Part shown: positions 38,084-42,143 of the stretch, piece after piece
Position numbering within the stretch: the first letter of the stretch is position 1
Layout: every line of letters starts with the position of its first letter
Source of the DNA: Sporosarcina pasteurii
Lineage (GTDB): Bacteria > Bacillota > Bacilli > Bacillales_A > Planococcaceae
Assembly: GCF_041295575.1 (NCBI RefSeq)
Contig: NZ_CP160452.1
Coordinates: 2,604,001 to 2,668,000 of the forward strand
DNA: 64,000 nucleotides
Reading direction: 5' to 3'
Made by a program: the position numbers and the translations under genes
Notes under the pieces: generated by a model
Seen by the model: the letters and a program-made list of their open reading frames with translations, nothing else
What the model was told of the DNA's origin: nothing
Database searches by the model: none

Positions 38084-38241
38084 AATAAAAAGAACCCTCA
38101 AACAAGAAGAGGGTCCATTCGTAAAGACAATCTTCTCATCTGCCAGGTATTATGAAAATACCTATTGGAATTAGCACCATACCTAAAAAGGCTGGTTGCT
38201 GAGACTTCTAAGGGCCATTCCCTCCATCTCTCTTGATAAGA
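38084..38241 (-). promoter_or_regulatory. SAM riboswitch (S box) with terminator
   Basis: Minus-strand reading: CTTATCAAGAGAGATGGAGG starts the aptamer near 38240, then GGAATGGCCC, CTCAGCAACCAGCC, GGTATGGTGCTAATTCC and GCAGATGAGAAG (38143-38132) closing P1. These are the conserved S-box elements in order. The expression platform is the hairpin GGACCCTCTTC/GAGGGTTC with a U run near 38090-38084. When SAM binds, the terminator forms and the downstream binding-protein gene is off. Very confident from motif order and spacing. Confidence 0.94.
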
Positions 38242-38375
38242 ATTGAAAGTATTTAATTATTTAAAAACTAAGTGTTCTTACTATATCATGTTCTAAAAAA
38301 CAAAACAAGTAGAAAAAGGTAGAATAAAGTCAATATTAACTTCAATCCATCTATTCATTTCTCGTTGCTAGATGC

Positions 38376-39001: not shown

Positions 39002-41023
39002 TTATTGTGCCAAATCGATAATTCGCCCTTCAATCATTGGAGTAATATTTCCTAAAACACTTAAATGTTCGGCAAAGTTTTCCCAATCACTTTGGCCTAA
39101 ATCCGTTACTCTACCTGCTTCATATGCTTTTGCAAAAACTGTGTATCCGTCTCCGCCTTTCGCGGTAAATGCATTTGTCGCTACGGTATAAGTCTCATGA
39201 TCACTAACTTCCGTATAAGTACCATCTACATTTTTATAGGCTACGGAAACAACCCGCTCACCAGAGGCTTTTCCTGAATCGAATGTCACTTTTGCACCTG
39301 ATACATGTAAGAAACCGCCATTTTCGCGCGGGTATTCTCGGAAACTAATTTCAAATGCTTCTTTTAATTCAGCGCCAGTTAGGTCCATCGTTGCTAACGT
39401 ATTGCCAAATGGAAGAACTGTAATTACTTCTCCAATTGTAATTGGACCCGCATCAATTGCAGCCCTTATACCGCCACCATTTTGTAATGCCATCATAACT
39501 TCTGGATTATACATTTTCGCTTTTGCTAGCATACCGTCTGTTATCAAGTTACCTAATGCTGTTTCATTTTTACGTACACTATCCTCATTCGTTCGTGGAT
39601 TTTCTAATTTACTTTCCGCTGTTGCTCCAATTTCTGTTTGTGCAATATCTTCTACTCTGTCTGAATATGGTTTCAACATTTCGACAGCTTCTGGATCTGC
39701 AGCTTTTTCACTAACAGGGATTAATTCACCCCTAAAGTCATTAATGACACCCTCTTTATCAAACACAATGTCTACGGACCCTAAAAATTGATTGTATTGA
39801 TAGGATTGGACAATGAGTGTCGGATCTTTCGTTGCGCCAGTTTCATCTTGGTCAACGACTATAGGTTCATTTAATTGTGTGTGGCTATGTCCGCCAACAA
39901 TCACATCAATTCCATCGACTGTTGCAGCTAAAATTAAATCATTATCAACTGCAGGGTTATCATCATATCCAATATGTGTCAAAGCAATAATTTTGTTGAC
40001 GCCTAGGTTTTCAAATGCAGCTACTGCTTTTTCAGCTTCTTCAATATAATCACTGAAAGTTATTGCACCAGGACTTGAAATATCGGCTGTCTCAGCGGTT
40101 GTCAGGCCAAAGACCCCCACTTTTTCTCCATTAATTTCCTTAATGATTCCATTATAGATTTTCCCTTTTTCAGGTTCGCTTGAAATTAAATCGCTGAATA
40201 AGCCATTAAATTTATCATCTCTTGAAAAATCAACATTGGAGCTGACAAATGGGAACTCGGCCGCTTCAACAAAGTCCGCTAAAGCTTGATGTCCCTCTGG
40301 TGTTGAACCCAAATCAAATTCATGATTACCAAATGTCATTGCATCATAACCCATTAAGTTCATAAATTGTAAGTCTGCCATTCCCTTAAATTCGTTGAAA
40401 TACAATGTTCCCGACATGACATCGCCGGCATCAAGAAGAAGAGCGTTCGGTTTTTCTGCTCGCACTTCCTTCACTGCTGTCACACGTTTTGCAATACTGT
40501 CTAAATTTCCATGTGTATCATTGGTATGCATGATAGATAGATCAAAAGGAAACTTGATCGCATCTGGATTCGCACCCTTTACATAATCAATTTGTTGAAC
40601 GTTTCCTGCTCCCCTTATTTCAGAAACCTTATTTCCCTCAATAATCACTTTAGACATTTCAATCCCACTAAAATCGACAATCGTACCTGCTTTTTTAGGT
40701 TTGATTGTAACGGAAGTATCTTTAAATCCATCACCATAAAACTCCGCATAACTACCGGTGAATACAACGCCATTCTTTATTGTTGACATTGAATCTAGTG
40801 TAATCGAAACACTTGATTCGTGGATCATCAATTTTCCAGTTTTATAGTTGTTTAAATCATATACTTTATCGAAATCCGTTACTGATGATGCTTGTTCTTT
40901 TATTACATTAGATGAAGTCATCGCAGCTCCGACTGTTGCCTGCAAGCCTGTTACTGATAAACTAACCGCTAAACTTGCTGACAATACTAGATTTAAGCTT
41001 TTACTCCATTTACTTAAACGCAT
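39002..41023 (-). CDS. Secreted 5'-nucleotidase / UDP-sugar hydrolase
   Basis: Extracellular metallophosphoesterase that salvages nucleosides from nucleotides. 673 residues: signal peptide (about 1-33), a beta-rich N-terminal domain of unknown family (about 45-155), then the metallophosphatase domain with HTNDTHGN, DAGDVMSG, GNHEFD and GGHSHTQL, and the 5'-nucleotidase C-terminal domain with LGNLITDGML, ALQNGGGIRA and FTAKGGDGY. No wall-anchor motif. Start ATG 41023 follows AAGGAG. Single gene. The exact substrate (AMP, UDP-glucose, cyclic nucleotide) is not readable. Confidence 0.9.
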   Translation of the reverse strand: MRLSKWSKSLNLVLSASLAVSLSVTGLQATVGAAMTSSNVIKEQASSVTDFDKVYDLNNYKTGKLMIHESSVSITLDSMSTIKNGVVFTGSYAEFYGDGFKDTSVTIKPKKAGTIVDFSGIEMSKVIIEGNKVSEIRGAGNVQQIDYVKGANPDAIKFPFDLSIMHTNDTHGNLDSIAKRVTAVKEVRAEKPNALLLDAGDVMSGTLYFNEFKGMADLQFMNLMGYDAMTFGNHEFDLGSTPEGHQALADFVEAAEFPFVSSNVDFSRDDKFNGLFSDLISSEPEKGKIYNGIIKEINGEKVGVFGLTTAETADISSPGAITFSDYIEEAEKAVAAFENLGVNKIIALTHIGYDDNPAVDNDLILAATVDGIDVIVGGHSHTQLNEPIVVDQDETGATKDPTLIVQSYQYNQFLGSVDIVFDKEGVINDFRGELIPVSEKAADPEAVEMLKPYSDRVEDIAQTEIGATAESKLENPRTNEDSVRKNETALGNLITDGMLAKAKMYNPEVMMALQNGGGIRAAIDAGPITIGEVITVLPFGNTLATMDLTGAELKEAFEISFREYPRENGGFLHVSGAKVTFDSGKASGERVVSVAYKNVDGTYTEVSDHETYTVATNAFTAKGGDGYTVFAKAYEAGRVTDLGQSDWENFAEHLSVLGNITPMIEGRIIDLAQ

Positions 41024-41195
41024 TCAGTTAACTCTCCTTTTTTTACTAGAACAATTAATCCAAAAATAATAGTTTTGGCAAATCTCCTAACCAAGAATTA
41101 TATTTAACTTAATATTCTAGTTTTTATTCAAATCAAGTTTAGTATAAGTATCAGCCAATAATATGTCAATTGCAGCTATGTAATCGAAGTACACC

Positions 41196-41236
41196 AAAAA
41201 ACGACTTCATCCTGAGATGAAGTCGTTTTTTTTACT
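41196..41236. terminator. Strong terminator (probable original ssrA terminator)
   Basis: 12-bp stem AACGACTTCATC/GATGAAGTCGTT with CTGA loop, T8 on the plus side and T6 on the minus side. On the minus strand it lies 25 nt after the displaced ssrA 3' end, where an ssrA terminator would be. Confidence 0.9.
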
Positions 41237-41260
41237 TTGTTTATCACATTCAAAATGTAT

Positions 41261-41360
41261 GGAGACGGCGGGAGTCGAACCCGTGTGCAAAGACTCTAAT
41301 TACTCAAGCATCTACTCGAATAGATTATCGATTGATTTTCGCGTATTAGTTTGCCACTAG
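41261..41360 (-). repeat. Displaced, decayed copy of the ssrA 3' end (relic attachment site)
   Basis: The first 23 bases GGAGACGGCGGGAGTCGAACC(CG) match the ssrA 3' end at 41786 exactly, and homology continues for about 100 bases with rising mismatch (for example GCATCTACTCGAATAGATT versus GCGTCTACGCGCATAGATT). No 5' tmRNA half and no tag frame is present, so it is not a gene. Such partial copies arise when an integrase inserts an element in the 3' end of ssrA and restores it. Confidence 0.85.
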
Positions 41361-41370
41361 CCTATTTTGA

Positions 41371-41396
41371 TAAAAGGAAGAAATATCTTCCTTTTA
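41371..41396 (-). terminator. Hairpin at the end of the 49-aa gene
   Basis: AAAAGGAAG/CTTCCTTTT stem with a 6-nt loop overlapping the stop codon; flanked by T-rich sequence on the minus strand. Confidence 0.65.
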
Positions 41397-41543
41397 TTTA
41401 TCTGTTTGTTTTTGCTTCTTTTTCAAATACTCCGTACGTAATTTTTCAAGATGCTGCTTTTTATCAAATTGGGCAGGCTTGTTTTTTTCATGATACTTTG
41501 TCACAGCTGCCTTACCTTTATTATCCAATTGATATTTTCCCAC
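41394..41543 (-). CDS. Small basic protein, 49 aa
   Basis: GTG-initiated frame: MGKYQLDNKGKAAVTKYHEK.. ending ..LRTEYLKKKQKQTDK. Lys-rich, predicted largely helical; function not recognised. GTG 41543 is 7 nt after AGTAGGTG, a good ribosome site, and a TTTACT-16-TATTAT promoter candidate lies at 41620-41593. It sits between ssrA and the displaced ssrA 3' end, so it may be the last cargo of an integrated element. Short length limits certainty. Confidence 0.65.
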   Translation of the reverse strand: MGKYQLDNKGKAAVTKYHEKNKPAQFDKKQHLEKLRTEYLKKKQKQTDK

Positions 41544-41592
41544 TTTTTTTCACCTACTTTTCTTGTCTTTAAAGAGAATCTATTCGATAAAT

Positions 41593-41620
41593 ATAATATA
41601 TCCTGTTTTACTGCAGTAAA
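41593..41620 (-). promoter_or_regulatory. Candidate promoter of the 49-aa gene
   Basis: Minus strand TTTACT (41615-41620), 16-nt spacer, TATTAT (41593-41598). Confidence 0.4.
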
Positions 41621-41691
41621 CCTTATTAGTGTCCTGCGTGAATCGCACCTTTGCACCACACAATTCAAACCAATTCTGAATGATGAAGATG

Positions 41692-41740
41692 AAAATAGGG
41701 ATATTGAACAAGAGTACAACTCCCGTTCAATATCCCTACT
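41692..41740 (-). terminator. Current terminator of ssrA
   Basis: 14-bp stem TAGGGATATTGAAC/GTTCAATATCCCTA followed by TTTTC on the minus strand, 45 nt after the tmRNA 3' end. Confidence 0.8.
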
Positions 41741-41784
41741 CATCAAAAACATTGATACGACTACATTTATCAGCCATAAAATTA

Positions 41785-42143
41785 TGGAGACGGCGGGAGT
41801 CGAACCCGCGTCCAGAGGCCCCAACACTTAAGCGTCTACGCGCATAGATTGACTACTTAGGTTTCGCGCATCATTATGCCGTCAATCACGGCGTCCTGTG
41901 CGCTATCCTGGTAATCTCTTCTAGTTACCTCAGGAGGCGATAACTAGCGTATCCCACTAATAAGTGAACCTTAGCGCGCCACATGGGCGATGGTACGATA
42001 AGGCAGATTCAGTCAGCTATTAAGCTGCGAATGCTAAATTGTTGTTTGTTTTGCCTGTTATTATAAATGGCGTTTTTACGGAGCCGACCCCTCCGACGCG
42101 CAACTTAAGCTCAGACTACCCCTGTCGAATCCGTAACGTCCCC
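41785..42143 (-). ncRNA. ssrA: tmRNA (transfer-messenger RNA)
   Basis: Rescues stalled ribosomes. Acceptor stem GGGGACG (5', ends at 42143) pairs with CGTCTCC (3', 41786-41792), and GGGTTCGACTCCC is the T arm. The tag frame reads GKTNNNLAFAA followed by TAA, giving the degradation tag (A)GKTNNNLAFAA. CCA is not encoded after the discriminator A. It lies 82 nt downstream of smpB, its protein partner. A promoter overlaps the smpB end. Confidence 0.97.

Follow-up and report, generated by a model that had tools for sequence, protein, structure and literature searches.

A likely collapsed remnant of an ssrA-specific integrative element beside the tmRNA gene of Sporosarcina pasteurii

Downstream of its tmRNA gene, ssrA, Sporosarcina pasteurii carries a second, decayed copy of the 3' end of that gene, which raises the question of how this copy came to lie there. 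We analyzed a 64,000-nucleotide stretch of DNA (here, the window), which is part of a single complete 3.3-Mb contig, the Sporosarcina chromosome. ARAGORN and Rfam both place the tmRNA, and the live ssrA encodes the tag GKTNNNLAFAA (Table 1). With a probability of roughly 0.88, we consider positions 41260-41784 to represent the collapsed remnant of an integrative element specific for ssrA and belonging to a class (class I) that we define below.

The decayed copy comprises the last 97 nt of ssrA and lies 525 bp downstream on the same strand, and this repeat, which was claimed in the initial annotation, is real. It aligned with ssrA nt 263-359 with a score of 47, compared with a maximum of 17 for shuffled sequences (n = 500), and it is 76% identical to live ssrA (E = 4e-12). 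On this strand, the sole biologically sensible match in Rfam was to tmRNA (E = 3e-6); this match was under the gathering score, as expected because the copy is a fragment. Rfam matches in 41180-41250 to a plant miRNA, a Burkholderia RNA, and other RNAs were rejected as representing the terminator hairpin. The limits previously given for the copy, 41261-41360, were off by one base at the start (41260), and the measured span is listed in Table 1. The copy had also been described as diverging progressively from its tip. Identity to live ssrA is 23/35 for nt 263-297, 28/40 for nt 298-336, and 23/23 for nt 337-359, i.e., the body is evenly decayed (66-70%), the tip is perfect (100%), and a gradient is absent. 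Using a search that allowed two mismatches, we found the 22-mer of the tip at two sites in the 3.3-Mb genome, and both are these copies.

Table 1. Coordinates of features at the ssrA locus in the window
Feature	Position	Strand	Basis
5'-Nucleotidase gene, first gene past the scar	39002..41023	(-)	
Terminator following the decayed copy (type B); hairpin at 41196-41233	41196..41259	(-)	Fold; relatives
Perfect tip, 24 nt, putative att core; point at which the window and G067 part	41260..41283	(-)	
Decayed copy of ssrA nt 263-359 (putative element right end and distal att)	41260..41356	(-)	Alignment, Rfam, nt-263 start of 8 full elements
Join of the 3' small-gene flank to ssrA nt 264; GGCAAA(A) is common to both	41350..41355	(-)	
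49-aa basic protein gene, putative retained passenger	41394..41543	(-)	Homologues and constraint
Terminator region of type A with hairpin at about 41696-41738; putative left end of class I ssrA element	41638..41784	(-)	Fold; cluster of ssrA ends
Intact ssrA (tmRNA), putative integration target	41785..42143	(-)	ARAGORN; Rfam RF00023, 193.8 bits

The two copies are followed by different terminators, both of which fold as described in the initial annotation. We gathered ssrA 3' ends in the genus Sporosarcina (66 live and 44 distal) and found that the DNA just past these ends can be sorted into a few terminator types, several of which occur after both live and distal ends. Sequence identity ceases at the ssrA 3' end, the outcome expected of exchange at that point. 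The type A cluster, to which the terminator after live ssrA in the window belongs, contains 17 live ends and 6 distal ends from this collection. Type B, which follows the decayed copy, is located after live ssrA in G005, G009, and G031 and after the outer tip in G042. Among these, G005, with live ssrA directly followed by terminator B, is a relative of the kind that the initial annotation proposed to look for. Part of the spacer past terminator A in the window (41638-41681) matches half of a palindromic repeat in G009 and G042 and is perhaps an interspersed hairpin element.

Based on Pfam, the integrases at these loci form two classes. Class I integrases are tyrosine integrases of about 330 aa with Phage_integrase, lack an arm domain, and are encoded on the ssrA strand; class II integrases are about 390 aa, have Arm-DNA-bind_4, and are encoded on the strand opposite ssrA. 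Across the Planococcaceae, type A ends were followed by a class I integrase in 18 cases and by a class II integrase in none, while for types C and D the counts were 22 for class II and zero for class I; for all non-A ends, the ratio of class I to class II was 2:23 (Fisher P of about 3e-10 for several genera, uncorrected for phylogeny). Counting against our reading, type A was also present at 25 further ends without an integrase and could, hence, persist as a plain terminator. Class I elements end with an ssrA copy that starts at nt 263 and is preceded by a conserved right-end motif, and class II elements end with a short tip copy, mostly of 22 nt (nt 338-359). Judged by these pairings, the terminator after live ssrA in the window is of the class I element type.

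Many Sporosarcina genomes have islands after ssrA that are bounded by partial or full ssrA copies. A far copy from nt 263 together with the common right-end motif was found in eight full elements in six genera (G042, G044, G147, G135, G085, G151, G031, and G107); the first six are complete, integrase-bearing islands at ssrA whose two ends are the same as in the window, and islands of this kind were what the initial annotation had proposed to look for. Planococcus sp. ISL-110 (locus L060) has, in this order, ssrA, type A, the first 31 codons of a class I integrase gene, the gene for a 49-aa protein that is also present in the window, the right-end motif, a decayed tail, and a native terminator that is the one observed after live ssrA in related Planococcus. 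From its gene order, L060 shows what we read as an intermediate between a full element and a collapsed scar. In another genus, G077 has ssrA, type A, the small gene, and the tip inside about 550 bp and is apparently an independent collapse. After the small gene in G021, G039, G033, and G015, no decayed tail scored above shuffles. In G031, a 20-kb class I element on contig C1 (L115:1553-1675 and L116:2208-2303) is bounded by ssrA tips on a contig other than that with live ssrA, and such tips may serve as secondary sites.

These comparisons bear on a different history, in which type A and the small gene are old residents beside ssrA, and the tail and terminator B were imported, e.g., by homologous exchange at the small gene. 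Such a history would fit with the order ssrA, type A, and small gene in G021, in which no tail copy was recognized, and with the presence of the small gene near ssrA in four Planococcus loci. However, type A is sporadic within other genera, in which most genus-mates match the ssrA tail only; Planococcus loci L059 and L062 have a different native terminator, which L060 has only past its distal tail; and new layers at an att site enter next to ssrA, and, therefore, A should be younger than B. We consider this history improbable and favor the collapse of a class I element.

We compared the tails to ask how much of the far copy could derive from the element. Class I elements with unequal tails (G147, G085, and, for the most part, G135) have their differences in the first 35 nt, and the remainder is identical. 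This pattern suggests that the element brings along the 5' part of the far copy and that the crossover point is further 3'; by extension, the 5' part of the window tail is probably element-borne, a conclusion that the tails of G107, which differ throughout, keep short of proof. The proposal in the initial annotation that the element restored the end of ssrA, with the far copy as the old host end, is, therefore, only partly right: the terminator after the live gene is of the element type, but the far copy probably derives in part from the element and is not simply the host end that was displaced. In the alignment with ssrA ends of relatives that had been proposed to determine which copy is ancestral, a consensus of the window and G067 tail copies had an identity of 0.81 to the live tails of G064, G055, G035, G026, and G015 and of 0.77 to their own. 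Several live tails match about equally, so that none stands out as the donor allele, a point that counts against the favored history.

Between the two copies lies one small gene, as noted initially. Homologues of the 49-aa gene are present in 66 of 120 sampled genomes, and its sequence is 97% identical to that in G067 at the nucleotide level while 4-fold sites differ by 35%. Based on its homologues and this constraint, we regard it as a real gene. The protein had no match in Pfam, NCBIfam, or the PDB. The gene is found at both ssrA loci (L060, L062, and L063) and tRNA-Arg(TCT) loci (L131, L133, L134, L138, and L020), and in many Planococcaceae it adjoins ssrA or tRNA-Arg as if hopping among integration hotspots. 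Its retention amid the decay of all else may reflect a benefit to the host.

The 3' flank of the small gene contains the junction to the decayed copy. At tRNA-Arg and other loci, this flank reads ...CCAATGGCAAAAGGCTATTTT; at such loci of G002, G005, G009, G031, and G042, its continuation is GGCAAAAGGCTATTTT. The corresponding flank of G067 is ...CCCAATGGCAAAATGATACG, and its second half represents ssrA from nt 264. The join lies inside the common 7-bp sequence GGCAAAA, as would be expected for a deletion between short repeats. While type A directly follows ssrA in the window and the far copy begins at nt 263, the conserved right-end motif is absent before nt 263, and the small-gene junction is in its place. 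Loss of this motif, which may once have been present, would be expected in a collapsed remnant. By tblastn, neither a class I nor a class II integrase matched at the window locus, and the Pfam integrase matches in this genome are elsewhere.

The closest relative, G067, has the same two ssrA copies about 545 bp apart. Taken literally, this is the finding that the initial annotation held against a relic, i.e., a close relative with the same two copies and interval; we read it as a shared ancestral scar because unreduced elements exist elsewhere. Common to the window and G067 are ssrA, type A, the small gene, and the tail. The two diverge exactly at the ssrA 3' end, past which the DNA is unrelated: terminator B and the nucleotidase gene lie there in the window, and transporter genes and a type D terminator that has decayed lie there in G067. 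In G003, G005, and G013, the 5'-nucleotidase gene is located about 7-14 kb downstream of ssrA. The window also contains a SAM riboswitch (90 bits) at 38133-38242 (-). Four of the 23 tip bases are changed in G067 and none in the window. The switch at the ssrA 3' end implies renewed use of the tip, probably upon departure of an outer element, and recombination there at a later time accounts better for the perfect tip than a gradient of decay does. G042 provides a model for such a step. There, the order is ssrA-A-IntI-tail263-C-IntII-tip-B, and removing the class II layer at its tips gives the order in the window. An excision like that of this layer, possibly by integrase action, or an exchange at the tip is the probable source of the renewed tip in the branch leading to the window.

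The perfect tip, together with tips of this kind that were used again in relatives and G067, might instead indicate that the second copy is kept for a function, as a regulatory RNA or as an att site that still receives incoming elements. The body, however, diverges like spacer DNA (86% identity for the decayed tail and 87% for spacer, against 98.6% for live ssrA), the tip has changed in G067, the structural basis considered is the weak Rfam tmRNA match, and the reuse of an att site fits with a collapsed class I element without selection; we, therefore, find maintenance for a function very improbable. The least likely origin, already disfavored, is that slippage during replication or an unequal exchange duplicated the ssrA 3' end locally, with no mobile element involved; Planococcus L060 comes close to the order ssrA, A, integrase, small gene, and nt-263 tail. 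A local duplication would suit the short, integrase-free interval, the common orientation of the copies, and the same layout in G067 but not the recurrence of the nt-263 breakpoint in eight integrase-bearing elements from six genera, the different and element-class-specific terminators of the copies, or tails that are 76% identical around an intact small gene.

Based on these results, we infer the following order of events. A class I element with a type A terminator and an integrase gene of the same direction as ssrA at its left end, and ssrA sequence from nt 263 at its right end, would have integrated in the 3' part of ssrA. This would have left ssrA functional and followed by the terminator of the element, while at the far end an ssrA tail would have been followed by the older downstream DNA. 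In the lineage of the window, the integrase gene, cargo, and right-end motif would then have been deleted, probably with the deletion ending in the GGCAAAA repeat and joining the flank of the 49-aa gene to ssrA nt 264. The small gene would have been kept by selection as the tail decayed. Later, in the branch of the window, recombination at the tail tip would have removed or replaced an outer layer and joined a perfect tip to terminator B. The initial reading of integration at the ssrA 3' end with its own terminator and later loss was, thus, largely right, as supported by the exclusive pairing of type A with class I integrases, the nt-263 breakpoint, and the full elements.

The scar is well explained because relatives still carry the full element, and it is an ordinary example of a known process. 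The part worth describing is the family of class I elements, in which a long piece of ssrA is combined with a matched terminator. Layers of past integrations are legible in a scar of half a kilobase, and because the terminator type points to the integrase class and the ssrA breakpoint to the element family, scars without an integrase become assignable. More tentatively, and in our view unlikely as a whole, the Planococcaceae ssrA elements could have an attP holding the 97-nt ssrA piece (nt 263 onward) and a replacement terminator, i.e., an unusually long att, and the 49-aa gene, retained more than once after loss of the element body and present at tRNA-Arg sites too, could be a passenger that serves the host, possibly in connection with its location next to smpB-ssrA.

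The ssrA gene of the Planococcaceae is a busy hotspot with defense cargo and a small conserved passenger gene. Cargo in ssrA islands matched the defense models LmuA and LmuB (Lamassu), PD-T4-1, TIR/SAVED-like, and PDC-S09 (L044:1600-5214, L044:9717-11084, L045:13777-14568, and L038:1959-2369). In L049 (9040-9397 and 12671-13031) and likewise in L054 (2943-3299 and 12294-12650), the ssrA locus of a single genome has two complete tmRNA genes, and the outer gene of L049 encodes the tag GKTNNNLAFVA. Mammaliicoccus phage phi6228 (PV425441.1:863-895) has 33 bp that match the ssrA 3' end in a feature annotated as SsrA, and this match is likely an attP-type piece.

Among known systems, the islands in tRNA and tmRNA genes collected by Islander (Hudson et al. 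2015, PMC4383910) are those in which island sequence restores the gene and the displaced fragment marks the far end. Like these, the window has an intact tmRNA gene at one end and a downstream 3' fragment on the same strand at the other, but there is no integrase gene in its interval of only 525 bp, and the integrase and length (2-200 kb) filters of Islander would reject it. In Dehalococcoides, islands are arranged in tandem downstream of ssrA, are bounded by ssrA 3'-end repeats, and have their integrase module beside ssrA (PMC3146451, PMC2764846). The Planococcaceae islands share these traits but use tyrosine recombinases and repeats of 97 bp (class I) or about 22 bp (class II), in contrast to the serine recombinase and 20-bp repeats of Dehalococcoides. 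Closest to the window are the Planococcaceae class I elements defined here (G042, G044, G147, and G135), which likewise have type A after ssrA and a far copy from nt 263, and which retain the integrase, cargo, and right-end motif that the window lacks.
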